From: Candidatus Poribacteria bacterium
GTDB taxonomy: Bacteria > Poribacteria > WGA-4E > WGA-3G
Assembly (NCBI GenBank): GCA_021295715.1
Contig: JAGWBV010000034.1
Span: 1 to 47,645 of the forward strand
Direction of reading: 5' to 3'
DNA: 47,645 nt
The position numbers and the translations under genes were made by a program. This document shows, piece after piece, positions 2,996-47,645 of this stretch (positions within the stretch are counted from its first letter, which is position 1; each line of letters begins with the position of its first letter). The notes below the pieces were generated by a model. The model did not search any database, was not told the origin of the DNA, and worked only from the letters and a program-made list of their open reading frames with translations.

Positions 2996-3079
2996 CAAAA
3001 TCCGAGAGGACTACCCTCCGAATTTCCACTTTTCCGCTCGCAGTCGTCCCTTTTTCAGTCTTAAAATGCTCTTTAAACC

Positions 3080-5564: not shown

Positions 5565-8099
<2,535 letters not shown>

Positions 8100-10976: not shown

Positions 10977-10995
10977 GGAGTGGTTGTCGGAAAAA

Positions 10996-11095
10996 TAGCG
11001 GTCAGCAATCAGCAATCAGTTAAGAGGGTATTTGTGAACCATAACCCCTTACAATTGATGGCTAAGAGCCGATAGCCGATAGCCGACGGCTAAGA
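10996..11095. repeat. H-family heptad hairpin repeat (gyrA-TPR spacer)
   Basis: Left arm of heptads TCAGCAA TCAGCAA TCAGTTA, then AAGAGGG, a loop, CCCCTT, and a right arm of heptads AAGAGCC GATAGCC GATAGCC. The arms are partly complementary, so the unit can fold. It ends 4 bp before the next start codon. This is the clearest copy of the family. Confidence 0.82.
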
Positions 11096-11099
11096 AACA

Positions 11100-12818
11100 A
11101 TGAAACATTTTAAAGCGATCTCAATCCTTGTTTTAATCATAGTATGTCTCCCTTTGGGCTCCAATTTGCAAGCGCAAACCGGAGGTGAAACACCTGAATT
11201 GGTGATACTCCCTGATGCTGATGCAGGATTGAATTCAAATATGACCCGCGTCGCAGGACTTTATACCAAGTTAATGTGGGCGACATACTACAGAACAGGC
11301 GAGCGCAGCATCCCAAAAAGCAAAGCTCTCTACGATGCCTTGATTGAGGAAATTGATGATGCCACCACCCTTCTCGAAGATGGACTCCTATCTGCAGAGG
11401 AAGTGAGTTTTATCTATGCCGAACGTGCCTCACTTCGGTATCCTAAATTGCAGGATATCAATGGGGCAGAAGAGGACGCGAAAACAGCTATTGAACTGAA
11501 TTCTGACAATGTAAAGGCAACATGGGTTCTTGCCCAAATAGTAACCGAGCGATTTCTGTATCAAATGGAACGGAACAGAAACGGTAGAAGACTTAACACG
11601 CTACAAAAGGAGATGTTTGATACCCTAAAACGCGTGGTCGATTTAGATCCCGATCACAATAAGGCTTACTTCTACCTTGGTAGTATGGCACGTGATCTCG
11701 GCGATACTGAACTTGCCATTACGTCCTTCAAGGCACTGACACGCATTATTCCTTATGATGACCGATATTATCGGGAACTCGCTGAACTCTATAAAAGTCA
11801 AAACCGGCTCGATGAGGCTGTCCAGTCCTACGAAAGAGTTGTCACTATTCGACCCGAACAGAAAAGTGCCCGAAATCGGCTTGGGCAGCTTCACCTTCAA
11901 GCTGGCGATTATCCTGCAGCGATAAAAACTTTCCTCTCTGTTTTGCCACCACTTGAAGGACAGTTGGAGACGAATGGTGTGAGGGAACGCGCTACGCCTA
12001 ATGTCAGTGAAGAAGAAATTGAAGCGCACCAAGGCATTAGCCTCGCATATCAGGCGCAAAATGACTTTGAGCAATCTGAATTCCATATCACGCGCGCAAT
12101 CAATTTGTTGGAAGAACGGGCAAAACGAACTCGTACCGGTTTCCGGACGAGAAGTAGCGAACGTATCGAATTAGCGAACCGTATCCAAGAGGCACGCTAC
12201 ACCCTCGGACAAATATACCTCAAATTCAATGTCCCTCGGAAAGCCGTCCAAACTTTTACGAAGATCCTATCTACCAATGATAAATATGTCCCTGCGCTTT
12301 CCGGTATAGGAATGGCGTATCAAATGCAAGACGATGTGAAACGCGCTGAAATTTATCTCCGTCGGGCAATTGAGTTATCTGCTGAAGAAGAATTGCCGGA
12401 TGCCTACAACGCATTAGGATATCTCTATGCAGAGCAAGGTATTAATTTAGATGAAGCCGCAGCTTTAGTGCGCCGAGCACTCAAAAGCGTGCCGAAATCT
12501 GGAGCATATCTTGATAGTTTGGGACTCATCTACTTTAAACAGGGAAAACTTGATGCAGCTATAGAAAACCTGGAGCAGGCGCTCCACTATCTACCCGATA
12601 CACCTGAAATTCTCTTGCATCTCGCTGACGCTTATCTTGGAAAAGGCTTGAAACAGAAAGCTTTGCAAACTTTGGAGCAAGCAGTCCTCCTTGAACCCAA
12701 TAACGCTGAACTACGCCAGAAACTTGAAAGAAGCCTTCAGCAATCAGGGGTCGGTGGTCGGGAGAACGGTTTCAATCAGCCGACGGTTTCCGATAGTGAT
12801 GCCCCTGAAAGCCGATAA
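11100..12818 (+). CDS. Exported tetratricopeptide-repeat protein
   Basis: 572 residues starting with a signal peptide (MKHFKAISILVLIIVCLPLG, cleavage near LQAQ). The rest is almost all TPR helix pairs: recognisable units include NKAYFYLGSMARDLGDTELA, YYRELAELYKSQNRLDEAV, ARNRLGQLHLQAGDYPAAI, AYLDSLGLIYFKQGKLDAAI and EILLHLADAYLGKGLKQKAL. Such proteins are periplasmic scaffolds and no enzyme motif is visible. The last about 28 residues (from LQQSGVG) are read from an H-family repeat and do not look like TPR. The stop is 2 bp before the next ATG, so it is probably translated with the peptidase gene. The specific role is unknown. Confidence 0.85.
   Translation: MKHFKAISILVLIIVCLPLGSNLQAQTGGETPELVILPDADAGLNSNMTRVAGLYTKLMWATYYRTGERSIPKSKALYDALIEEIDDATTLLEDGLLSAEEVSFIYAERASLRYPKLQDINGAEEDAKTAIELNSDNVKATWVLAQIVTERFLYQMERNRNGRRLNTLQKEMFDTLKRVVDLDPDHNKAYFYLGSMARDLGDTELAITSFKALTRIIPYDDRYYRELAELYKSQNRLDEAVQSYERVVTIRPEQKSARNRLGQLHLQAGDYPAAIKTFLSVLPPLEGQLETNGVRERATPNVSEEEIEAHQGISLAYQAQNDFEQSEFHITRAINLLEERAKRTRTGFRTRSSERIELANRIQEARYTLGQIYLKFNVPRKAVQTFTKILSTNDKYVPALSGIGMAYQMQDDVKRAEIYLRRAIELSAEEELPDAYNALGYLYAEQGINLDEAAALVRRALKSVPKSGAYLDSLGLIYFKQGKLDAAIENLEQALHYLPDTPEILLHLADAYLGKGLKQKALQTLEQAVLLEPNNAELRQKLERSLQQSGVGGRENGFNQPTVSDSDAPESR
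12736..12818. repeat. H-family repeat forming the 3' end of the TPR gene
   Basis: Heptad-like TTCAGCAATCAGGGGTCGG, then CAGCCGACGG...CCGATAG, ending at AAGCCGATAA, which supplies the stop codon. It encodes the Gln/Ser/Gly-rich tail of the TPR protein. Confidence 0.65.
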
Positions 12819-12820
12819 CC

Positions 12821-14623
12821 ATGCATAAATCCCTCGTTAGAATCTCATATCCACATTCGCTCTTTGCTGGTGGTGTGCTTGCGAGGTTTTCGCTCATCGC
12901 ATTACTGCTTTTCGGGTATCCCTGTGTAGAAGAGGTTTGTAACGCCGATTCATATATCTGTGGGACACCGCATTTATCAAATAGCCGTCAGCAGTCGGCG
13001 ATCAGCCTTCAGCAAGAGGACTTTGTTATACAAAAACCTCTTAACCGACGATTTCCGACAGTCGATACCCGACAGCCAAATGCTCCTGCCTTGCCTGCTG
13101 CGCCAGCTTTGCCAATTGGTACAGAACGCACCTTCTTCGCCCCTGATTTTAGAAGCATGCAACAGTACACCGTCTCCGCCGTTCTCCGCGGTGTAGGCAG
13201 TTTCTGCTACGTTTTCGTTGAGGAAGCTGAGTGGAACACACGGGTTACCGCTCGAACCGTTCAGGCAATAATCCGCGCTTTTGATGCCGCGACGCCAGCG
13301 AATCCACAGCAAGGAATTTATCCGACATTGACGAAGCTCTTCGGAGTTCCACCCGATATTGACGGAAATGGCAGGATTGTCTTACTGCTGCTCAACATTC
13401 AGGATGCACGCGGTGCTGACCGTTACACAGCGGGGTTTTTCAATCCAGCCGACCAGCAACAGGGGTTACTCCGAAATCCGGGGTTCCGAGGGTTCCCAAT
13501 TCGTAGTAACGAAGCAGAGATGCTATACATTGATACGCAACCTCTGAATCCGAACAGCGAAAGAGCACACAATGTTATTGCACATGAATTTCAACATCTC
13601 CTCAATTGGCGGCATGATGCAAGAGAAGTCAGCTGGGTTGATGAAGGATGTGCAGTATATGCCTCATTTCTCTGCGGCTATTCTGTGCGGGAACATGTAG
13701 CAGCGTTTGAAAAAATGCCATCTATCTCGCTTGTGACGTGGCCCGAGGGAAACGCAGACTCGCTTCCACACTATGGTGCTGCCTTCTTATGGATGCTCTA
13801 TCTTCATGAGCAGTACGGAGGTATAGGTACACTTATCGAAATTGTCCAAAATCGCGGCACATCGCTCACCGGTATCTCAGATGCGCTCACATCTCGAGGC
13901 ATTACCCAAACGATTCCTGACCTCTTCATTGAATGGAAATTGGCTAACTATTTATCCGAGTATCGTGCCATCGGACTTTCTCTCACGCCTCGTCGATGGT
14001 ATGACGCCTACCCAAGCGGCACGCAGCAGGGACAGTTGCGCAATTTTTCGGCGGCGTATATCGGCTTTAGAGATGCCGAGGGGTTAACACTTGGATTCTC
14101 AAGTAATTCTCCAACGAGTAGTGCTGTTCATGCAATTGAATTTCATAACACGGGTACCGTCGATATCAAGGAGATAGAATTGTCAGCTGGTAATACCGGT
14201 TCCCTTATGTTATCGAATACCGCCGCGGAGGTCATTCTGGTTCCCAGTTTACAAATGGAAGCGATCAATCTCGATGGGCAAAGTTTGACATATCAATATA
14301 GTGCAACCCGCGGTGCACATATCACCTTTACTACCGCTGCTCTTCCGAATCCGGTGCATCCGCGTTACTGGGACATCATCGCCGAATCGGCGGAATCCCT
14401 CGTAGGGTTGACCCCCACTGTAACGCTGATGCTCTCTGACAGCAAGACGGAGCAGCTTTACCGAGAAGCGCAAGCGATGTATCCCATAATACAGGATCTG
14501 CAGGATAACCGTCTGTATCGATTCTCGTTCCTCCTTGAACCAGAAATAGAACCGAAGTCGGTGATATATCACGTTTCACTTGATTCGAGACCCGTTGGTA
14601 CCGGATCCTTAACCGATTTTTAA
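12821..14623 (+). CDS. Secreted zinc metallopeptidase, M30 (hyicolysin)-like
   Basis: 600 residues with an N-terminal hydrophobic export signal (FSLIALLLFGYPCV). The catalytic zinc motif HEFQH (residues about 255-259, in NVIAHEFQHLLNW) is followed by WVDEGCAVYAS, whose Glu is the likely third ligand, as in gluzincins of the M30 type. DIDGNGRIVLLLLNI upstream matches the calcium-loop-like segment seen in that family. The C-terminal about 220 residues look like beta-sandwich domains. Between signal and enzyme, residues about 55-86 are encoded by an H repeat. Start ATG 12821 follows the TPR stop by 2 bp, suggesting coupled translation. The substrate is unknown; the M6 or immune-inhibitor-A group is an alternative. 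Confidence 0.75.
   Translation: MHKSLVRISYPHSLFAGGVLARFSLIALLLFGYPCVEEVCNADSYICGTPHLSNSRQQSAISLQQEDFVIQKPLNRRFPTVDTRQPNAPALPAAPALPIGTERTFFAPDFRSMQQYTVSAVLRGVGSFCYVFVEEAEWNTRVTARTVQAIIRAFDAATPANPQQGIYPTLTKLFGVPPDIDGNGRIVLLLLNIQDARGADRYTAGFFNPADQQQGLLRNPGFRGFPIRSNEAEMLYIDTQPLNPNSERAHNVIAHEFQHLLNWRHDAREVSWVDEGCAVYASFLCGYSVREHVAAFEKMPSISLVTWPEGNADSLPHYGAAFLWMLYLHEQYGGIGTLIEIVQNRGTSLTGISDALTSRGITQTIPDLFIEWKLANYLSEYRAIGLSLTPRRWYDAYPSGTQQGQLRNFSAAYIGFRDAEGLTLGFSSNSPTSSAVHAIEFHNTGTVDIKEIELSAGNTGSLMLSNTAAEVILVPSLQMEAINLDGQSLTYQYSATRGAHITFTTAALPNPVHPRYWDIIAESAESLVGLTPTVTLMLSDSKTEQLYREAQAMYPIIQDLQDNRLYRFSFLLEPEIEPKSVIYHVSLDSRPVGTGSLTDF
12982..13078. repeat. H-family repeat inside the metallopeptidase gene
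   Basis: TAGCCGTCAGCAGTCGGCG, AAGAGG, loop, CCTCTT, and CCGACAGTCGATACCCGAC: both heptad arms and the conserved centre are present, yet the frame is intact. It encodes a Gln/Ser-rich then Arg/Pro-rich linker after the signal peptide. Confidence 0.75.
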
Positions 14624-18785: not shown

Positions 18786-18883
18786 CAAAACCGTTAGCCT
18801 GCAACATCGGCGCAGGCGGATTTGAGAGAGGAACGTTAATGTCGAAACGCACGTTATTCCCCCGCAAAGTAAAATTAAAAATG
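18786..18883 (+). repeat. R-family repeat, copy D (over the start of the C25 gene)
   Basis: Core hairpin GCCTGCAACATCGGCGCAGG(C), then GGATTTGAGAGAGGAACG, ending CCGCAAAGTAAAATTAAAA directly before an in-frame ATG at 18881. With copy C it forms an inverted pair spanning about 260 bp. Confidence 0.75.
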
Positions 18884-21800
18884 CTATTGGGTATCTGCAT
18901 TCTCACCTTCATAGGGGTGGTTTGTAGCTCTGATTCCTTCGCAGAGATTGCCCAAACGACATCGACAGACGGAATCACCCTTCAATTCACCTTGCCGGAG
19001 CTGACTGTCTCTGAGGTAATCCGGAATAATGTCCGCTACCAAGAGGTGCGTTACGACGAATGTCACTTCACCGACGAACCGGGAAACCCCAAAGCTCCTG
19101 TTACTCGCCTCATGTTGGGTATACCCGCGGCGGCTACAATTGAAGCAGTCGATGTCTCTGCTGCATCCGCTGAGACACGCACCGGTGTGCGCCTCGTTCC
19201 AGTTCCGATTTTTGATATACATGAGCGCAATTCACAGCACTCGGCTTCACAGCACTGGTCGGAAAACGGGAGCGCGTATCAGTTAAAGGAAAGTCGTTCG
19301 TTTGCTGGAAATCACTCATACCCAGGGCATCCCCTTGCTCGGATCGTCCGTGAAGGCTATATTCGTAGCCAACGTGTTATCGCATTGGCACTATATCCTG
19401 TGCAATACCTACCGAACACTCGCCAACTGCGTTTGTATTCACGCTTCACAGTGAACATTCGTTTCTCCTACACAAAGCAGGGAGGACCACTAACAGCGCA
19501 AGGAAGCGGCTCACAAATTTTTCCTGGCGAAGGGATAACTGTCCCAGAATCGGAAGCTTTTGAGCGTGCATTCTCACATCAACTCCTCAATGCTGAACAA
19601 GCCGCTCACTTCCGGGCACCCCGTCCACTGGTCCCTGCAGCACCAACACTTATTCCCAACGGAGGTAATGAAACTCGTTATAAGCTGTCTATCCAAGAGA
19701 CAGGTATCTACGCAGTAACAGCGGCATCTCTACAAAACGATTGGGGTATAGATCTTATCGGTACGCACCCTGCGAGACTTCGACTCACACAAGGAAATAG
19801 AGACATTCCTGTATACATCAGTGGCGCGGCGGATGGAAGTTTTGATCCGAACGATGCCATCTTTTTCCTCGGTCATAAGCCTAAAAATCGATACAGTCGT
19901 TGGAACGTTTATTGGCTCATGATTGACAACGGTGGTCGCATTCCGACACGGGTGCCACAGATTACCGCCAGCCCCACAGACCAAACAGCAACGCAGGTGC
20001 CTACCTTCCGTTCTAAAGTGGACTTTGAAGAAGATCATCTAACGAGTAATCTCGAATTTGTTCATACCGAGACGGTTTCGCCTGGTAATAAGCACGGTTG
20101 GTTTGATGCTTTGGACTTTTGGTACTGGGACGGTATCAAAAATGGCGGTGATGCCGCCGAGATGCGCCTCGAATTCCCGCTCTATGATGTCGCAAAAAGT
20201 TTCGATCCGCCACGCATCTCTGTTGATTTGCAAGGCGGCACACCGGTATCACACGAGATTTTGGTCGCTATTAATGGAGTCCGGATTGACTTTGCTGAGT
20301 GGGAACAGCAAGATACACTCACCGTTGGGCGTACATTGCGCACATGGGATACACTCAAGGACAGCGTCAAAGGTGATCAGAATGTATTGTCTTTAGCCAG
20401 AGTTGACAGCAATGTTGATGAAGATACCACCCGATACCCCTATCATGTTTACCTCAATCGTTTTTCTGTCGAGTATACTCGCCTCTTCCGAGCCGTTGCT
20501 GACGAATTGTGGTTCAGATCTCCCACTGCCGATGCAACCTCCCAAGAGCGGAAACCCCCCGGAGGGCGGAAACTTCAGTATAAAATTGAGGCGTTCCGTG
20601 ATCCGGGAGTACATGTCTTTGAGACAGATGGTACATACCTTACTGCCCAGATGCAGGGTGTGAATGTGGAAGTAGATGTAGCACATCCTAATTCGTATAA
20701 TGCACTTTTCCAAGTTCCTGATACCCGAAGCACACAATTTATCGCCATCTCCGATATGGCGTTGCGTCAGCCTGATCGGGTTGAGGTCGTTGCGCCGACA
20801 GACTTAGCGACTGCGGTGCACGGTGCTGACTATCTAATTGTGACGCACCCTAACTTCCTACCTGCCGCACAACGGTTGGCAGCGTGGCGCGCAACGCCTG
20901 GCGGCGGCGGATACCGCACGAAAGTTCTTACAACCGATGAGATTTACAATACCTTTGGTGATGGGGGTGTGAGCCCAAAGGCTATTAAGGCGTTTCTAAA
21001 GCATGCATATCAGTCTTGGACCCCGCCAGCACTGACGTATGTGGCTTTTTTGGGAGATGGCACCTTCGATTTTCGCGGCATTGACACAGATATTTATGCT
21101 GAACCGCCTGAACTGACCGGGTACATTCCGACCCATTATATCCGAACCGACTCCTTCGGACGGACCGCCGCAGATCATTGGTATGCGACCGTCTCCGGAC
21201 ACGATGAATTCACCGATTTCTATATCGGTAGACTCAGTGTTGAAAACCCTGATCAAGCTAATGCAGTTGTTGACAAAATCATCGCCTACGAACAGGCACC
21301 GCCTAACGGGGATTGGCGAAGAAGAATCATTTCTGTTGCTGACGACGAAGTTAGCAACTCCGGGGATTTTATCTTCAAGAAGAGCCTTGATGAAATAGCG
21401 AAAGATCACACCCGTCTTGGATATGAAACGGTTGAGGTGTTCCTTGAAGATGTCATCGACCAAGTGGAAGCACGTCCTGCGGATTACCCAGGACTCTTGC
21501 CGCAACGCGTTGCGAAAGATCAAATCATTGAGGCGCTCGGAGAGGGGGCTGTCCTCGCACAATATGCCGGACACGGCGGTAGAATCGTTTGGGCGCATGA
21601 AGCGATCTTTGATAATGCCTCCGTCGATCAAGTTGAAGAAACTACAAAGATCCCTTTCATGTTAGTCCTCAGTTGTTACAACGGCTATTTTGACAAGCCT
21701 GGCGAACCGAGTATGGCGGAGAAGTTGTTGCGTAAAGAGAGAGGCGGTATCATTGGGATGTTGAGCGCGACACGTCTCACCTATGGCAGCGGGAACGATG

Positions 21801-24800
21801 CACTCAACCGTATCATTTTCGATATGCTCTTTAAACGGAACGTCCGACAACTCGGTCCCTTAAGTTTCGATTCAAAGGTTGAACTTTTAATGACAGAGGG
21901 CACAGGTCAAATTGATATTATGATGGAATATACCCTTTTCGGAGACCCTGCCTTACAAATTGCAATCGCTAATGGTGAAATTCAACCCACTATTGAGACG
22001 AAAACAGTTGCACCTGGAGATACGCTCCGAATTGCAGCCGGGCACGTACAGACTGCTACTTACGACGCGGCAAGCCGTTCAAAACGCTTTGTGACCGATA
22101 CCTCTTTTAATGGCACACTCACCGTTAAAGCTTTATTTCCGGGGAAAACAGCCACTGCTCAAGGTGTTGCGGGTCCAGTAAAATACTACACCGGCGACGT
22201 GATTCTCACGAAAACGGCAAATGTTAACCGCGGTGCCTATCCCGCATTGACTTTTTCTGTTCCGAAAAACATTGACAGCGGTGATGCCCATGTCGAGTAC
22301 TACGCTCAAAGTAACACAACTGTTGCTGTCGGTGGCGATGGATTTACCGTCAATATCCCAAAAATCCTTGACATTAAACCCGAATTAGTCGATGAGGGCA
22401 AGTTCCGCATCTCCGTTCAGGTTTCCGATGAAAAAGAAGAGCTGTTTCTCGTCCTCTTGGAATGGCGCAACCCACAGAGTCGGGAATGGGAGAACGTCCA
22501 ACTCGTTCCGGCAGATCCGCCCCCTCAGTCTCCGAAGACAGAAGACGGATGGTGGACAGTACCTGAACCACTAAACGCGCCTACAGATGGTTCCGTTATC
22601 CGGTATAATCTTCAAGTCACGGATATAGACAACAATACGGTTACAAGTGATAGACTCCAATATTATCCCTACGTGTATCCTAATCTGACGGTTGTGGAGG
22701 TTGACAGAACCAGCAGGATTGAGTACGGCTACAACACTAAAATGGAGCAATGGCACCTCTCGGCAGATGTCCAGGTAGAAGGCGAAAGTATAGCGAATCC
22801 GATTCAGGTTGCTTTTTTCAGCGGCAATCCGGATGTTGACGATGATACACTTGTTGACGATGACGCGAATCTCATAGGAACTACCCGCATTCAACCCAAC
22901 GACTGGGTGCAACGCACGCCATTGGCGAACCCCGGTACGAAGAAAGATGTTTATGAACCGGATCCCCTGAACACACTGCCAATTGCAACGGCTACTTTAA
23001 ATCTGAAAGACCCGCTGCCTCTCGGCACACATGACATATTCGTCTATATTGATGTGACAGAGACTGAAGCGGATCAGCCCGGTAAGGTCCTTGAAAACGA
23101 TGAGGAGGATAATATCGCCTACCGACGACTCCTTATTGATATGAATGCGGTCGGAAAGGCTTCTTCGAGTCAGATTACCAGTTTGGACCGGAACTGCGTT
23201 ATCACTGTTCCTCCTGGTGGTTTCCAAGAAGCTGCAGTGCTGGCAGTTCGTCCGTTAGATGAACAACAATTTGCGGCTGTAGAGACGAGTTCTCTTGATA
23301 CAACTCCGAAACCCTCATCTCCCAGTGAATTTGAGGGAATGTCCAAACGGGCACCGCTTCCTGGGATTTCTACTTACGGTTATGAAATAGTAGCCATTAG
23401 CAATCAGCAGTCAGAGGGCTCCGACGGTTTCCAAGAGCCAGCAGCCATTAAACTTGCCTCTCCAGTGGCGATTGACTTAAGTTTCGACCTTGGTACGCTC
23501 AGAACCCAACTCACGCGAGAATTGTTGGGCGGTATGGAATCCGAAGAGACGCCTATAGAACAGGGTCCAGATGAATTTGGGGTGACAGATACAATTAACG
23601 CCGCCATCGAATCCCGCGCACGTGAGTTGGGCATCTATATGTTTAACTCGACACTCGGAAATTGGGCGAGGCTTCCTTCTCAACAACTTGCCGATACTAC
23701 GGGCGCGTTGCAGCAGTGGATACATGTAACAAACGTGAGTGAGGAAAACGTTGGCGAAAGCACACTCCGCGATGTCCGTATCCAACCTGAAGGCGCTCCG
23801 ACCGGCAAATACGTCCTCTTCTTCACAGGTCCTCAAACTTATCGGCTTTTCCTGGCTTCCCCTTCAATAGAGGACACGCAGGCTTTTGAGCCGTTGGAAG
23901 TTATCGCATCCGCGGAGCAGCTTGGAAGTTTTACGACAGACTTACCCAGTTTTAGACACGGCTTCTCGGTTAATGTAGAACTCGATTTTGAAAAACCCTT
24001 TACATTCGGGGATGTCTTGACATTCAACATAACTTCCCTTGTACAGGCTGCGGATGTTGAGCCGGATCTTGATGTCACTCAACAGGGGCAGCGTTGGTAC
24101 GCATCTGGATTCAGAGATACTAACCGAGGCACGGGGACCATCAGTTACATTGAACTTCCGCCGGACACTGCTATGCCGGAGGATAAGTGGATTATCTTCT
24201 TCCTTACCGATACTGAATTTCAGGTTGAAGGTGAAAGAACCGGCATTTTGCGCTCCCAAACCGATGGAAACCAACCGTTGCGTGGAAGGGTCGGAGAACC
24301 GTTCGCATATAAGCCCTACGGTTTGCGTTTTCAAATTACACAAGGTGAACGGTCCTTTGTTCCTGGCGATAGATTTCGGTTTCAAACCCGATCTGTCGGC
24401 ACTATTCGGGCTACAACGGATCGGCTCGGACCGATTACACTGTTGTATACCGACGATACAGTGCCACCTGATATACAACTCACTATTGGCAATCAACAAC
24501 ATTTTGTGACGGGGGACGCAACAGATTCTGAGCCGCTCATCGGAGCAACATTAACTGACCTAAGCGGGCTTGATTACTTCACCCGTCCGTTGCTGTTAGA
24601 AATTGGAGACGCTTTCGGAGAATATGAACGTATTCATCCAGAGGCGTATCAGGTGACACATCACCCAGGCTCAAATCAACTCGTGTTGACATATCCGTCT
24701 CCCGAGCTTGAACCGCGGGAATATGAGGTCCGCCTCACCGCAAGCGATGTTCATGGAAATACAGATACAAAAGAAATCACATTTCGGGTCCATGACGCTT

Positions 24801-25093
24801 TGCAACTGCTATCGTTTCTCAACTATCCAAATCCTTTTCCCCGCAAAACAACGCTCACCTGCGAATTGACAGCCCCTGCTGACGCACTCGTTGTGAAAAT
24901 CTATACGCTGAGTGGACGACTTATCCGGGAACTCTCTCTGCCAGCAAGTCCTGGGTTTCTTATGGTGGAATGGGATGGCAGAGATGCTGATGGAGTTGAG
25001 GTTGCAAATGGCGTTTACTATGCTAAACTCCGAATCCAGCGCGACGGTGAAAAAGATATAACCGAAATACTTAAAATGATGAAATTGCGTTAA
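18839..25093 (+). CDS. Giant secreted C25 (gingipain/PorU-like) cysteine peptidase with type IX sorting domain
   Basis: 2084 residues. An N-terminal export signal (MLLGICILTFIGVVCSSDSFA) is followed by a propeptide-like beta region. The C25 domain runs from about 670 to 1045, with YVAFLGDGTFDFRG, TDFYIGRLSVEN, a catalytic His in QYAGHGGRIVW (His912) and a catalytic Cys in LVLSCYNGYF (Cys946). Their 34-residue spacing resembles gingipains. Several beta-sandwich domains follow. The end is a FlgD/type A sorting domain (LNYPNPFPRKTTLTCEL, YTLSGRLIREL, WDGRDADGVEVANGVYYAKL). Start: ATG 18839 has GAGAGGA 7 bp upstream; ATG 18881, directly after the R end, is the alternative. A PorV-like gene follows. 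It is either a sortase (PorU) analogue or a cargo protease. Confidence 0.87.
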   Translation: MSKRTLFPRKVKLKMLLGICILTFIGVVCSSDSFAEIAQTTSTDGITLQFTLPELTVSEVIRNNVRYQEVRYDECHFTDEPGNPKAPVTRLMLGIPAAATIEAVDVSAASAETRTGVRLVPVPIFDIHERNSQHSASQHWSENGSAYQLKESRSFAGNHSYPGHPLARIVREGYIRSQRVIALALYPVQYLPNTRQLRLYSRFTVNIRFSYTKQGGPLTAQGSGSQIFPGEGITVPESEAFERAFSHQLLNAEQAAHFRAPRPLVPAAPTLIPNGGNETRYKLSIQETGIYAVTAASLQNDWGIDLIGTHPARLRLTQGNRDIPVYISGAADGSFDPNDAIFFLGHKPKNRYSRWNVYWLMIDNGGRIPTRVPQITASPTDQTATQVPTFRSKVDFEEDHLTSNLEFVHTETVSPGNKHGWFDALDFWYWDGIKNGGDAAEMRLEFPLYDVAKSFDPPRISVDLQGGTPVSHEILVAINGVRIDFAEWEQQDTLTVGRTLRTWDTLKDSVKGDQNVLSLARVDSNVDEDTTRYPYHVYLNRFSVEYTRLFRAVADELWFRSPTADATSQERKPPGGRKLQYKIEAFRDPGVHVFETDGTYLTAQMQGVNVEVDVAHPNSYNALFQVPDTRSTQFIAISDMALRQPDRVEVVAPTDLATAVHGADYLIVTHPNFLPAAQRLAAWRATPGGGGYRTKVLTTDEIYNTFGDGGVSPKAIKAFLKHAYQSWTPPALTYVAFLGDGTFDFRGIDTDIYAEPPELTGYIPTHYIRTDSFGRTAADHWYATVSGHDEFTDFYIGRLSVENPDQANAVVDKIIAYEQAPPNGDWRRRIISVADDEVSNSGDFIFKKSLDEIAKDHTRLGYETVEVFLEDVIDQVEARPADYPGLLPQRVAKDQIIEALGEGAVLAQYAGHGGRIVWAHEAIFDNASVDQVEETTKIPFMLVLSCYNGYFDKPGEPSMAEKLLRKERGGIIGMLSATRLTYGSGNDALNRIIFDMLFKRNVRQLGPLSFDSKVELLMTEGTGQIDIMMEYTLFGDPALQIAIANGEIQPTIETKTVAPGDTLRIAAGHVQTATYDAASRSKRFVTDTSFNGTLTVKALFPGKTATAQGVAGPVKYYTGDVILTKTANVNRGAYPALTFSVPKNIDSGDAHVEYYAQSNTTVAVGGDGFTVNIPKILDIKPELVDEGKFRISVQVSDEKEELFLVLLEWRNPQSREWENVQLVPADPPPQSPKTEDGWWTVPEPLNAPTDGSVIRYNLQVTDIDNNTVTSDRLQYYPYVYPNLTVVEVDRTSRIEYGYNTKMEQWHLSADVQVEGESIANPIQVAFFSGNPDVDDDTLVDDDANLIGTTRIQPNDWVQRTPLANPGTKKDVYEPDPLNTLPIATATLNLKDPLPLGTHDIFVYIDVTETEADQPGKVLENDEEDNIAYRRLLIDMNAVGKASSSQITSLDRNCVITVPPGGFQEAAVLAVRPLDEQQFAAVETSSLDTTPKPSSPSEFEGMSKRAPLPGISTYGYEIVAISNQQSEGSDGFQEPAAIKLASPVAIDLSFDLGTLRTQLTRELLGGMESEETPIEQGPDEFGVTDTINAAIESRARELGIYMFNSTLGNWARLPSQQLADTTGALQQWIHVTNVSEENVGESTLRDVRIQPEGAPTGKYVLFFTGPQTYRLFLASPSIEDTQAFEPLEVIASAEQLGSFTTDLPSFRHGFSVNVELDFEKPFTFGDVLTFNITSLVQAADVEPDLDVTQQGQRWYASGFRDTNRGTGTISYIELPPDTAMPEDKWIIFFLTDTEFQVEGERTGILRSQTDGNQPLRGRVGEPFAYKPYGLRFQITQGERSFVPGDRFRFQTRSVGTIRATTDRLGPITLLYTDDTVPPDIQLTIGNQQHFVTGDATDSEPLIGATLTDLSGLDYFTRPLLLEIGDAFGEYERIHPEAYQVTHHPGSNQLVLTYPSPELEPREYEVRLTASDVHGNTDTKEITFRVHDALQLLSFLNYPNPFPRKTTLTCELTAPADALVVKIYTLSGRLIRELSLPASPGFLMVEWDGRDADGVEVANGVYYAKLRIQRDGEKDITEILKMMKLR
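23393..23450. repeat. H-family half-repeat inside the C25 gene
   Basis: GCCATTAGCAATCAGCAGTC, AGAGGG and CCAGCAGCCATTA: heptad arm remnants in frame, encoding a Gln/Ser/Gly-rich linker (SNQQSEGSDGFQEP) between beta domains. Degenerate but recognisable. Confidence 0.55.
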
Positions 25094-25193
25094 TGGTTGT
25101 CAGCAGTCGGCAGTCAGTCCTCAGTTACAAGAGGTTTCCCGCATGCATATAACCTCTTTACTGACAGCCGATACCTGATAGCCGATGGCCATT
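25094..25193. repeat. H-family heptad hairpin repeat (C25-PorV spacer)
   Basis: Left heptads GTTGTCA GCAGTCG GCAGTCA, centre AAGAGGTT...AACCTCTT (8-bp perfect stem), right heptads CAGCCGA TACCTGA TAGCCGA. It fills the whole gap between the C25 stop and the next start. Confidence 0.82.
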
Positions 25194-25198
25194 AAAAA

Positions 25199-26293
25199 AT
25201 GAAACATCTTAAAAAAAATATCTTCTATTTTCTGGTGTGTGTAATTGCGTTCTGTGTGGTGGCTCCTCAATCCGTTGATGCCAGGTACACTGCTGATTTT
25301 CTAACACTTGGGGTTGGAGCCCGCGCACTTGCTATGGGCGGTGCGGGGACTGCGCTGAGTGACAATGCTTATGCCCCCTATTGGAATCCCGCTGGATTGG
25401 GACAGCTGACTCGATATGAAGTCAGTTTCATGCACTCTACGCTCAATGGAGAAGATGCTTACGATTTTGTCAGTTTTGTGGTGCCGCTTGCAAAACACAA
25501 CTTGCAGGACAAAAGTCAGCCGCTGAAAAAGCGAGGCGCGATTGGTGTCAGCTGGCTCCGCGTCGGTGTTGACGATATTCCTATTACCAGTCTACCCGTT
25601 GTCAGCCGGCCTGTCGGACCTGAAAACCGTCCAGAGATCGTCGGATCTTTTAACAATACCGATAACGCCTTTCTCTTTGCTCACGGCTGGAGACTGCCAG
25701 CTTTCCGTGGTATTAATTTACATCTTGGTGGGACGCTCAAACTTCTCTATATGAGTGGGTATCGAAGCACAAATGCCATCGGTGGTGGGGCAGATGTCGG
25801 TGTTATCGCAATGACGAACCCAGAAAAATCTCATCAGCTTATGCTCGGATTGCAGGCGAGTGATGCCTTCACGACGAAACTCTATTGGAATACACCGCCA
25901 CCATCGTCCGACCAGACATCCCACACCGAGACGATACTGCCGCATCTGAAGATTGGTATTGCCACGATACACTCGCTCCCTATCTTCCGAAGTAAACTCA
26001 TTCTCGCATTGGATACCTACGTTCAGAATCGAGGTCAATCTGATGCCGAGGCACCACAGGGCAGTCCAGTTGAGTTGCATGCCGGTGCTGAGTGGACGCT
26101 TTTCGACCTGCTTGCCTTACGGGTTGGAATGGCAGAGCGGAGTGGAAGCCTTGAGAGCGTGCGTCAGCTGACAGCAGGGGTTGGATTGAATCTCAGATTC
26201 GTCACCGGCGCAGGTGCGGGATTAGACTATGCGTTTGCGAACCACCCGGCATTAGGTGGCAGCCATCGTATATCTCTCAGAATTAGATTTTAA
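25199..26293 (+). CDS. PorV/PorQ-family outer-membrane beta-barrel protein
   Basis: 364 residues. Signal peptide MKHLKKNIFYFLVCVIAFCV with a cleavage site near VDA. The mature protein opens with FLTLGVGARALAMGGAGTAL and AYAPYWNPAGLGQL, the hallmark start of the PorV/PorQ group of FadL-like barrels, and alternating beta strands continue to a C-terminal aromatic residue (ISLRIRF). In type IX secretion PorV shuttles cargo to the PorU sortase. Here it lies directly after a C25/PorU-like gene with only an H repeat between, so co-transcription is likely. No PorK, PorL, PorM, PorN or Sov gene is in the window. Confidence 0.82.
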   Translation: MKHLKKNIFYFLVCVIAFCVVAPQSVDARYTADFLTLGVGARALAMGGAGTALSDNAYAPYWNPAGLGQLTRYEVSFMHSTLNGEDAYDFVSFVVPLAKHNLQDKSQPLKKRGAIGVSWLRVGVDDIPITSLPVVSRPVGPENRPEIVGSFNNTDNAFLFAHGWRLPAFRGINLHLGGTLKLLYMSGYRSTNAIGGGADVGVIAMTNPEKSHQLMLGLQASDAFTTKLYWNTPPPSSDQTSHTETILPHLKIGIATIHSLPIFRSKLILALDTYVQNRGQSDAEAPQGSPVELHAGAEWTLFDLLALRVGMAERSGSLESVRQLTAGVGLNLRFVTGAGAGLDYAFANHPALGGSHRISLRIRF

Positions 26294-33098: not shown

Positions 33099-33162
33099 TT
33101 TTTTGTGTTTGGATGAAAGGATGGGTCCCCTCCTTTCCATCCTTCCTCTCCGTTCATTCCAA

Positions 33163-33206
33163 TCTTTTAACCGACTGCCGATGGCTGACTGCTGAAGGCT
33201 ATTAAG
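33163..33206. repeat. H-family half-repeat forming the 3' end of the serine hydrolase gene
   Basis: TTTTAACCGACTGCCGATGG, CTGACTGCTGAAGGCTATTA: heptads supplying the last about 12 codons (IAFSSQPSAVG) and the stop of the minus-strand gene. Just downstream, 33116-33142 can form a second small hairpin (AAGGATGG/CCATCCTT). Confidence 0.65.
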
Positions 33207-34246
33207 TGGAAGATTTTTCGGAATTCGATGATGCCACGCCGATCGGCATCGGGATGCACCCGATTTGTCAACAGAATCGCTGCAAGTTTTCTTTTTAAAC
33301 AGATTCGTATTGAAGTGCCAGTGAATCCGGTGTGGTAGAGACAACCGTCATCTGCCAAAGCCCAGCCAATACCCCGGCGTTCTCCTTCCGCTGAAGCGAC
33401 CTGTTGCATCGTAGAGAGGCTCTCCGGACGTAAGAGTTGCCCACCATTTCTCATGAGCGTTCTGCAGAGCTTACCGAGATCCGTTGATGTAGAAAAGAGT
33501 CCTGCATTGCCGGAAACGCCACCAAGGAAATGCGCGTTCTCATCGTGGACTTGCCCCATGATGATGCCTTCTCGCCAATCATAGCGTTCGTAGTTCACCA
33601 TCCGGCGTTCAAAACTGTTGGAATCCTCAGTGGCTGCACACTGTTCACGCCATGTGTGTGGCGGGTTGAACCGCGTCCATTCCATACCGAGCGTCCCGAA
33701 AATCCGATCGTATGCCAGTTTATCCAACGATTGTCCCGCGACGCTTTCAAGGAGCGCGCCTAACACGATATACCCCAAGCAACTATACACGGCTTTTTTC
33801 CCTGGTTGAGATTCCAGTGGCACCCCTCCGAGATAGGAGATGACATCCTTTCGTGATGGTGCACGCAGATAAACAGGCAACCACGCCGGGAGTCCGGAGG
33901 TATGTGTCAGCAGATGTTTAAGCGTCACCCCTTTCTGCTTGAACTCCGGTAGGTATTTCTCTGCAGGCGTATCTAACGAGAGTTTGCCGCTCTCAACGAA
34001 CTGCATGCAAAGTGTCCCTACAACAATCGGTTTCGTCAGCGACGCTAAGTCGAAAACGGTCGTGTGAAGCATCGGTAGTTTTTTCGGTTTCACACATCGA
34101 TAACCAAACGCTTCGTGGTAAAGCACCTTTTTATCCGTAAGAATACAGGCAACAGCACCCGGAAACACCTTCTCGGAGATGCTATTCTCAATAAGGTTTT
34201 TTAAATTTACCTTGCGGTCAAATGACGTGGGAGTAGAACTTGACAT
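33167..34246 (-). CDS. Beta-lactamase-family (class C-like) serine hydrolase
   Basis: About 359 residues. The nucleophile motif S-x-x-K is in DLASLTKPIVVGTL. The second motif, usually Y-S-N/D-L-G-Y, reads YSCLGYIVLG with Cys at the usual Asn/Asp place. The third, H-x-G, is in YHTGFTGTS. LLTHTSGLPAWLP and GVSGNAGLFSTSTDLGKL are typical of DUF1343-linked esterases/beta-lactamase homologues. No clear signal peptide. Start: ATG 34246 chosen; ATG 34276 is possible, and an R end lies inside the frame (DRKVNLKN) just before the domain. The C-terminus comes from an H repeat. Probably a peptidase or esterase acting with NamZ; true lactamase activity is unsupported. Confidence 0.85.
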   Translation of the reverse strand: MSSSTPTSFDRKVNLKNLIENSISEKVFPGAVACILTDKKVLYHEAFGYRCVKPKKLPMLHTTVFDLASLTKPIVVGTLCMQFVESGKLSLDTPAEKYLPEFKQKGVTLKHLLTHTSGLPAWLPVYLRAPSRKDVISYLGGVPLESQPGKKAVYSCLGYIVLGALLESVAGQSLDKLAYDRIFGTLGMEWTRFNPPHTWREQCAATEDSNSFERRMVNYERYDWREGIIMGQVHDENAHFLGGVSGNAGLFSTSTDLGKLCRTLMRNGGQLLRPESLSTMQQVASAEGERRGIGWALADDGCLYHTGFTGTSIRICLKRKLAAILLTNRVHPDADRRGIIEFRKIFHLIAFSSQPSAVG

Positions 34247-34324
34247 TTTTCTATAAGAATCCCTCCTCCATTTCATGACGGACGACGCGGTTTGGACAGT
34301 GTTTAAGTATGTGCCTCTTTTGAG

Positions 34325-34970: not shown

Positions 34971-36371
34971 TTGGACGGTAAGCTACATTTTTCAGTTGAC
35001 GATGGAAGGGTTGGTTTGCTCCCGCAGGCGGCACAGCAGAAGGTTGATACCGCTTTGCAAAAGATTCATCTTCTCTTTCAGGATGAGACAGAAGCATCAC
35101 TTGCCGAATTGGAGCGTGGGCTTCGTGCGTGGACCCGAAGTCATCTCCAGTCCGAGGATATTGCTCAGGTCGCGGCATTAGCCACACGCGCGCGTGAGGC
35201 GTTTTCGGTGTTAGTTACCATTGGGGTTGGGGGTTCCGACCTGAGTGCCCGCGTCTTTCACGATTCCTTCAACCATCCCTATCATAACTTGTTGTCGGTT
35301 GAAGAACGAGGCGGTGCCCCCGAAGTCTATTTCACAGGTGATACCTTCGATCCACGCAAACTTGCTGGCTTACTTGAAATGCTCAAATCAAGAAACCTCC
35401 TTGATAAGACGCTTTTCAATGTCATTAGCAAATCCGGGACAACGGCCGAAACGATGGCGACATTGATGATTATCCGTGATGCGCTTGATGATGTAAACTG
35501 GCATAAACAAATCCTCGCGACGACCGGATTAACCGTCGACAGTGTGCTCTTCCGAATACATAAGCAATCACCCTTCTACGGGGACCCACTGCTTCCTGTT
35601 CCTGATGGCGTTGGGGGACGGTTTTCAGCTTTCTCTCCAGTTGGGTTGTTCTTTCTCGCTATGACGGCAGGAAAGGACGAGACTCCCGATACCCGAATTC
35701 GTGCCGCTGTCGAAGGGGTGAGTCAGGCGCATGAAGACTTTAATCTCGATTATAACCATCAGGATAACATGGCATATCAATTGGCACGATGGATTCATCT
35801 TTCTGAAGAAACTAACGGAACCAAGGACCCAAGTAAAAACACCATTGTTTTTTACAACTACGCTGACAGTAGTTGCCTTGGTGAATGGCTTGTCCAACTT
35901 TATACGGAATCTATTCAGGAACGCCGGGGCGGTGCTAATGTCATAAATGCAAAGGGACCCACGAGTAATCACTCTATTCTCAACGGTATTATCGCCGGTC
36001 CCAGAGATAAAGTCGTTTTATTTATCCATTGGGAGGAACTTGGTCCCGATTTAGGACTACCGACAGAGACTGGAATGGACAGCAAGTTAACCGAGTTGGA
36101 AGGTTTATCCATGACGCACATGCAGACTGCTTCGTATCGCGGGACGGCTTTAGATTTGAGTGAGAACGGGGTCCCGAATGCAACGCTAACGATCTCGAAG
36201 CGGGATATTCGGTCTGTTTGCCGGTTAATGCGCCTCTTAATGGACACGATTGCCGTGAAAGGCAGGCTCCAGGGATTACATCTTGACAATGATGACGGGA
36301 GTGAGTTAACATACCTGCAAGATGGTGTAGAAGGCTATAAACGAAATTTCCGATCTTTTTTAGAGTCTTGA
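34971..36371 (+). CDS. pgi: Glucose-6-phosphate isomerase
   Basis: Interconverts glucose-6-P and fructose-6-P. 466 residues, in the range of the shorter bacterial PGIs. Motifs: TIGVGGSDLSARV, NVISKSGTTAETMAT (phosphate-binding loop), GGRFSAFSPVGLFF, QERRGGANVINAKGPTSNHS and NHQDNMAYQLARW. The start is TTG 34971, 13 bp after CCGCAAGG; no ATG fits and the protein begins MDGKLHFSVDDGRVG. The stop codon TGA overlaps the TTG that could start the next gene, so coupling is likely. Confidence 0.95.
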   Translation: MDGKLHFSVDDGRVGLLPQAAQQKVDTALQKIHLLFQDETEASLAELERGLRAWTRSHLQSEDIAQVAALATRAREAFSVLVTIGVGGSDLSARVFHDSFNHPYHNLLSVEERGGAPEVYFTGDTFDPRKLAGLLEMLKSRNLLDKTLFNVISKSGTTAETMATLMIIRDALDDVNWHKQILATTGLTVDSVLFRIHKQSPFYGDPLLPVPDGVGGRFSAFSPVGLFFLAMTAGKDETPDTRIRAAVEGVSQAHEDFNLDYNHQDNMAYQLARWIHLSEETNGTKDPSKNTIVFYNYADSSCLGEWLVQLYTESIQERRGGANVINAKGPTSNHSILNGIIAGPRDKVVLFIHWEELGPDLGLPTETGMDSKLTELEGLSMTHMQTASYRGTALDLSENGVPNATLTISKRDIRSVCRLMRLLMDTIAVKGRLQGLHLDNDDGSELTYLQDGVEGYKRNFRSFLES

Positions 36372-38527
36372 AAAAAATGAGAAATAGACTCTCAGGTTTA
36401 CGATTCCATGATAAAATATTTATCGCTTACGGCTTCGTCTTCCTTGTCATGTTTGGCGTTGTCTTTGGGAGTACCAGTTTCCTGATTCGGCTCGCTTTTA
36501 AAAGGGAAATTGACTCTTATGTTGAGAGGGTTCAAGCGCAAATTTCAAACAGTTATCGAAAGTTGCTCAACAAAGTTCAGAAAGAAGTCCACGCCACAGC
36601 CACTGATGTGAGACTGCACCGCGTCATAGAAAGCGAGTCGCGCTTCCCTTATCTACCAGCACCGGAGTTCGATCTCTTAGAGTATGGGACCGCGGATGGA
36701 AGGCTGCTATATCCAGACACAAGGGTAGGACAGAGGACGCGAACATATAATTCGTTGGACGACGAAGAGGGATATATACAACTCAGAATTATTCCGCTGC
36801 AGAGCGATTTGGGGTTGCAGTATGTGGTTCAGGTAACAGAAGCAGGCGAATGGGGATTTGTGACAGGGGGTTACCTCTTGCAGAAGTGGCTGGAGACGAC
36901 CCAAACGAGCCTCCAATCTGATGAGCATCCTATCTTCCTTGTAGGAAAGACACAAAGTTCGGAGACGACCTCCTTCGACACCGAGCTGGAGACGACAGCG
37001 GCAGAGGATTGGCTCCCGCTAAATTACGCTTCTCAGACAGCGCAAGGGAGAGGATGGTTTAAATCACTTCCGCGTTGGCTTCCAGAACAAAAAATCTTTT
37101 TGCAGGGAACAGAAGAGACCGGTGGACGGGCTTTTACCGCTTTTCGGATAACACCTTTCAACTCACCCTTCGCGACGACGCGCGCGACCCCCGCTGTCGG
37201 TCTAATCGTGGCATATTCGCATGAACGTCAGATGAAATGGCAGCAGCAACTTACGATTACACTGCTTTTGAGTGGTATCGGTGGACTCGCGTTAGTTTAT
37301 CTCATCAGTTATATCATTAGTCGTCGGATTACCCGTCCGATCGCGGTGCTGCGTGAGGGGGTCAGCCATATCGCTGCAGGTGATCTGGACCATCGCGTTA
37401 AAATCCAATCGCGTAACGAGGTGGGGCAGCTTGCTGAAGGGTTCAACCAAATGGCGCAGGACCTGAAGCAGAGCATGGAGGAGCGCATGGCGGCAGAACG
37501 TGCCGCGACGTGGAGAGATGCCGCTCGACAAGTAGCACACGAAGTTAAAAACCCGCTCTTTCCGATTCGGCTCTCCGTTGAAAACCTACAGCAGGCGAAA
37601 TCCAACCCTGAGGTCTTTGAGCAAATATTCAGTGAATGTACGGACACAGTCATTGAAGAGGTCGATCGGATCGGTAAACTCATAGACGAGTTCCATCAAT
37701 TCGCGCGAATGCCGAAGCCTCAGCGAAAATGGAGCCAATTGAATGACATTGTGAGATCTGTTCTAACATTATACACCGGTAGACACATAACCGACCTTGC
37801 GCAGGAAAATGAAGGGACACCGATGAGTTCAGAGCAGGTGGACTCGGTGCTACAAGATTCTACTGAGAAGTTCTGGCTTGAAAATATCTCGAAAATTAAA
37901 GTTAGGACTGAGTTAGATCCGCTCCCTCGACTTTTAGTTGATCCGGAACAGATGACACAAGCACTTGGCAATCTCCTGAAAAATGCAATTGAAGCGATGC
38001 CTGCGGGCGGATTGCTTAAGGTGAAAACCTATTTCACACCAAAGGGCAGTCAATCCTCGGTTTCTGTCGACAGTCTCTCAGAATACGTTTTGACGGGAGA
38101 AGATGATAACGATCGCCATACACCAAGTAGCCGTCAGCGAGAGAATCTTACGGCAGATGAAAACGATAGCGACAGCCGTGCACCGAAAGCCATTAATGGC
38201 ACGGTTTCGCTGGAAATTCAAGATACAGGGCACGGTATGTCCGAGGAGACGATGGCGAATCTCTTTGTGCCTTATTACACGACAAAGTCGGAGGCGAATG
38301 GTAGAGGACTCGGTGTGCCAATTGTTAGGAGGATTGTCACAGAACACGGTGCCGATATAGACTTCCAAAGTGCTGAAGGCGAAGGCACAACCGTCCGTAT
38401 CCATTTTTCCCACAATCAAGAAACTCGCTCCGAGGCGTTTACATCAGCGACTCAAGAATTCATACCACGCACGAGCTTGGTTACTGAACTGGAAACCGAA
38501 GATCCGACGGTAGGCGTTAAAGACTGA
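36368..38527 (+). CDS. Membrane sensor histidine kinase, NtrY-like
   Basis: 719 residues from TTG 36368 (or ATG 36377). TM1 about 17-38 (FVFLVMFGVVFGSTSFLI), a periplasmic sensor domain of about 255 residues without a known motif, TM2 about 296-318, and HAMP about 319-372 (RPIAVLREGVSHIAAGDLDH). The phospho-acceptor is His391 in ARQVAHEVKNPLFPIRLS, typical of the NtrB/NtrY group. ATPase: N box LGNLLKNAIEAMPAGG, G1 QDTGHGMSE, G2 GRGLGVPIVRRI. A disordered polar stretch between N and G1 (about 570-612) is read from an H-like repeat. The regulator gene follows after 147 bp. The signal is unknown. Confidence 0.92.
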   Translation: MKKMRNRLSGLRFHDKIFIAYGFVFLVMFGVVFGSTSFLIRLAFKREIDSYVERVQAQISNSYRKLLNKVQKEVHATATDVRLHRVIESESRFPYLPAPEFDLLEYGTADGRLLYPDTRVGQRTRTYNSLDDEEGYIQLRIIPLQSDLGLQYVVQVTEAGEWGFVTGGYLLQKWLETTQTSLQSDEHPIFLVGKTQSSETTSFDTELETTAAEDWLPLNYASQTAQGRGWFKSLPRWLPEQKIFLQGTEETGGRAFTAFRITPFNSPFATTRATPAVGLIVAYSHERQMKWQQQLTITLLLSGIGGLALVYLISYIISRRITRPIAVLREGVSHIAAGDLDHRVKIQSRNEVGQLAEGFNQMAQDLKQSMEERMAAERAATWRDAARQVAHEVKNPLFPIRLSVENLQQAKSNPEVFEQIFSECTDTVIEEVDRIGKLIDEFHQFARMPKPQRKWSQLNDIVRSVLTLYTGRHITDLAQENEGTPMSSEQVDSVLQDSTEKFWLENISKIKVRTELDPLPRLLVDPEQMTQALGNLLKNAIEAMPAGGLLKVKTYFTPKGSQSSVSVDSLSEYVLTGEDDNDRHTPSSRQRENLTADENDSDSRAPKAINGTVSLEIQDTGHGMSEETMANLFVPYYTTKSEANGRGLGVPIVRRIVTEHGADIDFQSAEGEGTTVRIHFSHNQETRSEAFTSATQEFIPRTSLVTELETEDPTVGVKD
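38127..38200. repeat. Degenerate H-family repeat inside the histidine kinase gene
   Basis: AGTAGCCGTCAGCGAGAG ... AGCGACAGCC ... GAAAGCCATTAATGGC: remnants of heptad arms in frame, between the N and G1 boxes of the ATPase domain, where the lid loop tolerates length changes. The weakest of the coding copies. Confidence 0.45.
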
Positions 38528-40152: not shown

Positions 40153-40587
40153 ATGCTACAGAAAAACATCAACGAAAATAACGGGATGACTCGACTTCAA
40201 CTGCTCATCCTTGTTATTATAGCCATTATCATTGTGGCACTTTCTTTCCCACCGTGGCAGGAGTATCGAAAGGTGAGCGCGGCGGATATAGATGTCGAAA
40301 CCATTGCTGTTGCCATCAAGAAGTACTTCAAGCACACCGGTGGGTATCCAACGAATTTAGGTGCTTTGGTGACGGATACTGGCATTGAAGGATGGCGTGG
40401 TAACTATCTGGAGTCTATTCCTGAAACACCTTGGGGTGGGAATTATGTTCTCCAGCAAGATGCCTATAAGGTGGGGATTGCAAAAAATCACCCGCGTGTC
40501 CCTGAAAAATATCGCATCGGTGGTGTCGCGGAGATTAGTAGAGTCTACCATGCGGACGCGCGCCTCGGTGAAAAGTATTGGTGGTAG
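40153..40587 (+). CDS. Pseudopilin-like protein (GspG-like)
   Basis: 144 residues from ATG 40153. The leader MLQKNINENNG is followed by MTRLQLLILVIIAIIIVALS, a prepilin-type cleavage Gly plus hydrophobic helix. The usual F-T-L-I-E after the Gly reads M-T-R-L-Q, so the +5 Glu is Gln. The globular part (AIKKYFKHTGGYPTNLGAL, IPETPWGGNYVL) resembles the GspG/major pseudopilin C-domain. The frame is open to TTG 40114, overlapping the regulator stop, with AGGAGG at 40123-40128, too far from the ATG. The gene for prepilin peptidase follows, supporting the call. Minor pseudopilin is the alternative. Confidence 0.75.
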   Translation: MLQKNINENNGMTRLQLLILVIIAIIIVALSFPPWQEYRKVSAADIDVETIAVAIKKYFKHTGGYPTNLGALVTDTGIEGWRGNYLESIPETPWGGNYVLQQDAYKVGIAKNHPRVPEKYRIGGVAEISRVYHADARLGEKYWW

Positions 40588-40589
40588 TT

Positions 40590-40668
40590 AGTTAGCAGTC
40601 GTCAGTTGTCGGTTAAAGACGGGACAGGTTAACCGATGACCCTCTTCCGAAGACCAATAACCGGTAAA
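40590..40668. repeat. H-family repeat (pseudopilin-peptidase spacer)
   Basis: Heptads GTTAGCA GTCGTCA GTTGTCG GTTAAAG, then ACCGATGACCCTCTTCCG and AATAACCGG. The AAGAGG half of the centre is mutated. It fills the gap between the two genes and runs up to the next start. Confidence 0.65.
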
Positions 40669-42419: not shown

Positions 42420-42420
42420 A

Positions 42421-42494
42421 AGCCGTCGGCAATCAGTCATCAGCGGTCAGTAAGAGGGAATTAGGTGTCGAACGCCCCGACTGCTGACAACTAT
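42421..42494. repeat. H-family repeat between convergent genes
   Basis: AGCCGTCGGCAATCAGTCAT, CAGCGGTCAG, TAAGAGGG, and a right end CGACTGCTGACAAC that runs into the amidohydrolase stop. It fills the whole gap between the nitroreductase and amidohydrolase stop codons and could act as a two-way terminator. Confidence 0.72.
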
Positions 42495-47617: not shown

Positions 47618-47645
47618 TTAAGGCTTTTTCCACGTTTGCCCTTCA
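47618..47645 (-). CDS. Possible 3' end of an upstream minus-strand gene
   Basis: Only eight codons (EGQTWKKP) and a stop are in the window. The sense is suggested because H repeats elsewhere end at stop codons and because a respiratory gene such as cytochrome c would be expected here. Too short to identify. Confidence 0.25.

Follow-up and report, generated by a model that had tools for sequence, protein, structure and literature searches.

Repeat copies and host genes in the window

We investigated a short palindromic repeat, here called H, in a contig of 47,645 nucleotides (contig C34; hereafter, the window) from a sponge-associated member of Candidatus Poribacteria (genome G000; 5.14 Mb, 96% complete). 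At least 35 genomes of the same genus were available for comparison, coding regions were called with our own gene caller, and H was located using a profile built from G000 copies. The copies in the window and the genes associated with them are as follows.

10977..11098, + strand: intergenic H in the gyrA/TPR spacer (55 bits)
11100..12818, + strand: host gene, TPR protein (ORF; syntenic in 20/20 relatives)
12731..12829, + strand: H that makes up the final ~28 codons of the TPR gene and its stop (27.7 bits, E = 3e-8)
12821..14623, + strand: host gene, secreted metallopeptidase of 600 aa (ORF; orthologues in 58/60 relatives)
12980..13079, + strand: H in the metallopeptidase gene, between the signal peptide and the mature domain (62 bits, E = 7e-19 in the window), encoding SNSRQQSAISLQQEDFVIQKPLNRRFPTVDTRQP
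13014..13042, unstranded: central hairpin AAGAGGACTTTGT/ACAAAAACCTCTT of the metallopeptidase H (inverted repeat, 13-nt arms, 85% complementary)
18839..25093, + strand: host gene, C25 peptidase (PF01364, E = 1e-83)
23387..23460, + strand: decayed H in a C25 linker (AISNQQSEGSDGFQEPAAIK; profile match 23387-23414, E = 0.004 alone)
25092..25201, + strand: near-consensus intergenic H (77 bits, E = 1.5e-23), with the TTAATGG at its left end running into the stop codon of the C25 gene
26288..26328, unstranded: partial H at the stop of a PorV-like gene (15.8 bits, E = 1.5e-4)
33160..33209, - strand: H half-copy from which the serine hydrolase takes its C-terminal tail AFSSQPSAVG and its stop (33 bits, E = 6e-10)
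33167..34276, - strand: host gene, serine hydrolase with beta-lactamase fold (PF00144, E = 2e-65, aa 26-348)
36368..38527, + strand: host gene, sensor histidine kinase (HisKA, HAMP, HATPase_c)
38130..38196, + strand: decayed H in the part of the histidine kinase gene that encodes the HATPase loop (E = 2.2 alone, not significant)
40578..40663, unstranded: H overlapping a gene at its 3' end, position 40587 (29 bits)
42416..42493, unstranded: H between two convergent genes, touching both stops (36 bits)
47532..47622, unstranded: intergenic H near the end of the window (54 bits)

The metallopeptidase had no match in Pfam, and an HExxH-type motif, HEFQHLLNW, was read in its translation. As PF00144 spans aa 26-348, the H of the serine hydrolase lies at and beyond the end of the domain.

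A first-pass annotation, made from the sequence alone, had described H repeats inserted in frame within protein-coding genes, with a copy at 12982-13078 in the metallopeptidase gene and others at the ends of the TPR and serine hydrolase genes. All three were recovered clearly by the profile (62, 27.7, and 33 bits, respectively), and the coordinates were right to within 2 bp. The ORF translations agreed with its description of open frames and Ser/Gln/Arg/Pro-rich peptides, and the repeat does supply some stop codons: the TAA of the TPR gene (12816-12818) and that of the hydrolase gene fall within H or at its border. The two weaker copies that it had proposed, in the C25 (23393) and kinase (38127) genes, were marginal and not significant, respectively, in the window alone, but orthologous copies occur at the same C25 linker (19-82 bits) and in the same kinase loop (26-34 bits).

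Architecture, copy number, and placement of H

Aligned full-length copies define H as an imperfect palindrome of ~105 bp, comprising a (TCAGCRR)n left arm, an AAGAGG...CCTCTT hairpin, and a (GCCGATA)n right arm. The left arm starts with TTAATGG or AATAGCC, followed by the TCAGCRR heptamers, and the right arm is made of GCCGATA-type heptamers with a terminal GCCATTAA. Like a MITE, H has terminal inverted repeats (TTAATGG...GGCCATTAA at 25090-25196 of the window), and the RNA fold of this intergenic copy reached -39.3 kcal/mol (z -5.6).

The profile matched 92 places (88 at E<0.001) in 426 kb of chosen, H-enriched sequence and none in shuffled sequence, placing the copies far above chance. Tandem heptamers are found across many phyla and can form by slippage, and the Ser/Gln-rich linkers might be imagined to result from independent replication slippage and merely to resemble H. 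We regard this as highly improbable: the in-gene copies have a left arm, a hairpin, and an inverted right arm, with scores of up to 82 bits, and slippage cannot produce an inverted arm, nor did shuffled DNA yield any match. In most cases, moreover, this complete architecture recurs at one and the same site in several species.

In 460 kb sampled irrespective of H, we found 29 copies, which corresponds to ~325 copies per genome. Although 73% of the sampled DNA was coding, 27 of the 29 copies (93%) were intergenic and only two lay in genes. In the H-enriched sample, 12 of 88 copies were inside ORFs and eight overlapped gene ends. Stop codons were hit slightly more often than if the copies were placed at random within their own spacers (27 vs 20.2, P=0.008); a strong preference of H for stop codons was rejected, as this excess is only modest. 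The intergenic predominance, the strong RNA hairpin, and the slight stop-codon excess are what would be expected if H were kept mainly as a regulatory or mRNA-end hairpin similar to REP sequences, with the in-gene copies being accidental by-products. Nevertheless, this explanation does not account for the same coding linkers having been filled repeatedly, and the differing repeat families carried by different species at one spacer junction argue against a conserved function of the site; we therefore consider it rather unlikely.

The coding behavior of the arms follows from their heptamers. (TCAGCAG)n encodes SAVSSQQ in all three frames, and (AGCCGAT)n contains a stop in all three, whereas AGCCGAA and AGCCGAG contain none. 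Since the heptamer reads alike in every frame, the SAVSSQQ or ESRKPKA composition is automatic and selection is not needed to explain it. The right arm usually carries stops, and few frames accordingly read through intergenic copies: among 66 such copies of at least 80 bp, 33 of 396 frames (8%) were open, and 39 copies had no open frame in either direction. Thus, a random insertion into a gene usually amounts to a stop, and the rarity of read-through fits the near-restriction of H to intergenic DNA. The in-gene copies either have a stop-free right arm or lie at a gene end where the stop is used. The frame bias raised in the first-pass annotation was not found, as all three phases are represented among the starts of the in-gene copies and a 7-bp unit giving the same heptapeptide in any frame leaves no bias to measure.

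Orthologue comparison

We compared 20 syntenic stretches from relatives with the window. In the metallopeptidase gene, H lies between the conserved ...TATCAAAT and GCTCCTGC, where it replaces an older linker: 18 of the 20 relatives have a different linker between the signal peptide and the enzyme, the H-encoded linker is common only to G010, and G027 has a shortened form. The TPR protein ends in an H-derived tail in G000, G010, G017, G024, G008, and G027 and in unrelated short tails in the other 15 species, with a dN/dS of 0.46 in the tail (few sites) versus 0.06 in the rest of the gene. Readable serine hydrolase orthologues have other short tails a few residues past the domain (FHNILFAS and FHDILFT, each followed by a stop, and similar). 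In the C25 gene, two linkers contain H-like DNA in many species and decayed or no H in others. Copies of 81 and 82 bits occur in G009 and G028, respectively; the linker of the window copy holds the 82-bit H in G028, which displaced a conserved LASPVA motif, and copies of 25 and 19 bits in G033 and G027, respectively. The kinase loop corresponds to a hairpin turn in the HATPase domain, is ~51 aa longer than that of ZraS (9jfj), and contains H at 26-34 bits in G010, G033, G027, and G013.

Two further cases were found elsewhere in G000. The heme-A synthase gene (COX15/CtaA) carries a 79-bit H in the loop that joins the two halves of the enzyme; this copy is absent in 10 of 12 relatives (39-nt linker in nine, 75-nt linker in G033). 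A response-regulator phosphatase has a 71-bit H inside a SpoIIE loop, and what looks like the same insertion in decayed form is present in the phosphatase of three sister species. The host positions (the CtaA junction, the SpoIIE loop, the HATPase hairpin, and the site behind the signal peptide) look tolerant.

In-frame insertions with empty orthologues, the pattern known from Rickettsia palindromic elements (RPE), were thus present at the metallopeptidase, heme-A synthase, phosphatase, and TPR tail sites. Where H is absent, the orthologues have linkers or tails that differ and are mostly shorter; of those compared, none keeps an H-encoded peptide without H DNA. At several sites, H took the place of the old linker rather than being cleanly added. 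These comparisons confirm the observation of the first-pass annotation and support its reading of in-frame insertion, with corrections.

All genomes compared are metagenome-assembled genomes (MAGs) and some kinase orthologues contain stops, which might suggest that the genes carrying H are pseudogenes or result from misassembly. However, their ORFs run over the full length and score strongly as coding, the G010 assembly, in which filled alleles recur, consists of one contig of 5,849,392 bases, and the metallopeptidase body is constrained between G000 and G010 (dN/dS 0.16), making this explanation barely credible. We consider it likely that H is a dispersed palindrome that inserts in frame and creates new linkers and tails, which best explains the data.

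The kinase orthologues of G017 (L161), G033 (L163), and G027 (L164) have one or two stops within the aligned region, a possible sign of kinase decay in some species. In addition, a different repeat (ATTGTCCCGCAGGTTTCC..., with CACACGCGGC in G034) is also found in frame in the same linkers in the histidine kinase of G034 (L162) and the phosphatase of G013 (L149), and several families therefore seem to use these sites.

Possible mobility and copies shared between species

Exact TCAGCAR doubles numbered 46 in G000, 5-7 in its sister clade, and 114 in G010, and none were found in four genomes of other genera. This unevenness between species fits recent, lineage-specific amplification. Comparisons of filled with empty alleles, whose sites were rearranged, revealed no target-site duplication; together with the loss of part of the old linker at several sites, this does not support a claim of simple transposition. 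The search for a partner transposase covered the Y1 family. The single Y1 match in G000 was IS200-sized (143-aa frame) and not flanked by H, the nearest copy being ~7 kb away, and G013 has H with no Y1 match. RAYT-driven spread of H was rejected because Y1 counts do not track H numbers. We also rejected a correspondence between in-gene copies and species-specific heptamers; the early count had been driven by the in-gene copies and vanished on excluding the C25 gene. The only heptamer unique to one genome was (CAGTGGC)n of G006.

In the tree, G017, G024, and G008 are the closest relatives of G000 (support 1.0), and G010 is more distant. Nevertheless, H in the metallopeptidase gene is present in G010 and absent from the three close relatives, and H in the heme-A synthase gene is present in G010 and absent from G017 and G024 (G008 had no match there). 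The unfilled sister-clade sites in both genes carry the ancestral linker. Between G000 and G010, the heme-A synthase H is identical at 106 of 108 positions at flanking dS values of 0.32 and 0.48, and the metallopeptidase H has nine nucleotide differences in 102 at a body dS of 0.525. So few differences at such dS are not expected under vertical descent, implying that a short tract carrying H may have been exchanged or that near-identical copies may have inserted twice at one site. Of the intergenic sites, two were examined, and both contain H in G000 as well as in G010; at one such site, the junction is occupied in the sister species by another palindromic family. Assembly error could conceivably have produced the shared tracts, yet they are not identical and their flanks differ.

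These data raise the alternative that in-gene H reaches a species mainly through homologous recombination of very short tracts, or through same-site insertion from a shared donor, among co-occurring species, with new in-gene transposition being rare. The low divergence of the two shared tracts, the ancestral linkers retained in the sister clade, and the shared intergenic sites point in this direction. Conversely, ~110 bp is unusually short for conversion, the phosphatase and C25 copies have other sharing partners, a common donor may have inserted twice, and MAG assembly may contribute error. We regard this alternative as a serious contender while leaning against it. A more specific version, in which a non-coding palindrome of ~110 bp spreads between species in a homing-like manner and re-enters the same codons, leaving a tract far younger than its flanks, appears distinctly unlikely; if true, protein linkers would be exchanged horizontally almost alone. 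The possible transfer of a ~110-bp tract between species, of which H is an apparent case, is the most novel point of this analysis.

Returning to in-frame insertion as the favored reading, we propose the following course. New H copies would arise occasionally in the genome, and those now in genes would have arrived by mobility. An in-gene copy would persist only if the frame stayed open through H or if a stop at the gene end were tolerated. The left arm, open in all frames, would always encode the same Ser/Gln-rich heptapeptide, whereas the right arm would have to be a stop-free variant (GCCGAAA, GCCGAGA, or CCGA for CTGA) unless it formed a new C-terminus. The outcome would be a new linker or tail, presumably translated, positioned in a loop on the protein surface, between two domains, after a signal peptide, or at the C-terminal end. 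Such segments are probably nearly neutral and would subsequently drift under weak constraint until only orthologue comparison revealed their origin.

Relation to known repeats

RPE are palindromes of ~105-146 bp with long stem-loops that are dispersed and in some cases lie in frame in conserved genes, where the peptide inserts are tolerated (PMC2229807). H is likewise a dispersed palindrome of ~105 bp with a long hairpin and in-frame copies in conserved genes, but, comparing by description, it differs from RPE in its 7-bp units, the lack of a preferred frame, a right arm that usually contains stops, and its occurrence in a different phylum. The likeness to RPE drawn in the first-pass annotation therefore holds for the creation of new protein segments, as the orthologues support, and fails for membership: H acts like an RPE, yet is not one by the features tested.

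Cyanobacterial STRR sequences are 7-bp direct repeats. H shares with STRR and TAACTGA repeats the 7-bp TCAG-NNN type of unit, (TCAGCRR)n in G000 with CAGTTAT units in relatives, which has stops in one orientation and is open in the other. However, these known repeats are described almost only as direct repeats, whereas H has two heptamer arms, one of them inverted, around a central hairpin and also occurs inside domains. The TAACTGA heptamer repeats of Beggiatoaceae and Cyanobacteria contain stops in one orientation, are open in the other, and occasionally occur at protein ends (PMC4679880). H joins the RPE-like and heptamer-repeat logics and, by the features tested, is a member of neither.

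Other families offer partial parallels. ERIC/RU-1, RU-2, RU-3, and Correia/NEMIS are small palindromic MITE-like repeats with ORFs fused in frame to genes (PMC2229807, PMC2759123). H resembles the enterobacterial ERIC/RU elements as a small palindrome fused in frame to genes, but target-site duplications are reported for several ERIC/RU/Correia families and none were seen for H at filled/empty pairs. REP/BIME sequences with RAYT transposases are intergenic palindromes present in hundreds of copies, with REPs of 20-40 bp bearing GTAG/CGTC tags (PMC3733652); H is similar in being an intergenic palindrome in hundreds of copies, but it is ~105 bp long, and no H-flanked RAYT was found in G000. Borg tandem repeats, found on extrachromosomal elements, create new disordered protein segments (PMC9879509); they are tandem direct repeats, whereas H is a dispersed palindrome, although both yield new protein segments. 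Among the papers searched, none dealt with repeats of Poribacteria.

In-frame repeats that build protein segments have been known mainly from Rickettsia and enterobacteria, and here they occur in a phylum that is sponge-associated and uncultured, in which the many relatives with sequenced genomes make insertion, decay, and re-filling visible at single sites. The results suggest a rule by which one arm of a heptamer element is insensitive to frame, because a 7-bp tandem unit gives the same peptide in every frame, and H sites constitute a natural experiment on the entry of new disordered linkers into conserved enzymes. Other phyla contain related heptamer DNA, and palindromes with the full H-like architecture were also observed in a Nitrospiraceae MAG (L195:5946-6036, 48 bits) and a Dehalococcoidia MAG (L186:2135-2213 and 5808-5885, 41 bits), which suggests a wider class of heptamer palindromes.

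The window contains a second palindromic family (TTTTTAATTTTACCTTGCGGTTCGGTCAG...CCGCAAGGTAAAATTAAAAA, with AGCCTGCAACAACGGCGCAGGCGGA inside) at 1405-1491, 18795-18881, and 34884-34970, as well as at 741, 8099, 31661, 34196, and 44252, often near start codons; in relatives, this family is found at the same junction where G000 has H. Finally, the dnaA/recF spacer (3069-3207 of the window) contains ~8 TGTGGATAA units, mostly at 11-bp spacing, which are probably DnaA boxes of a replication origin.
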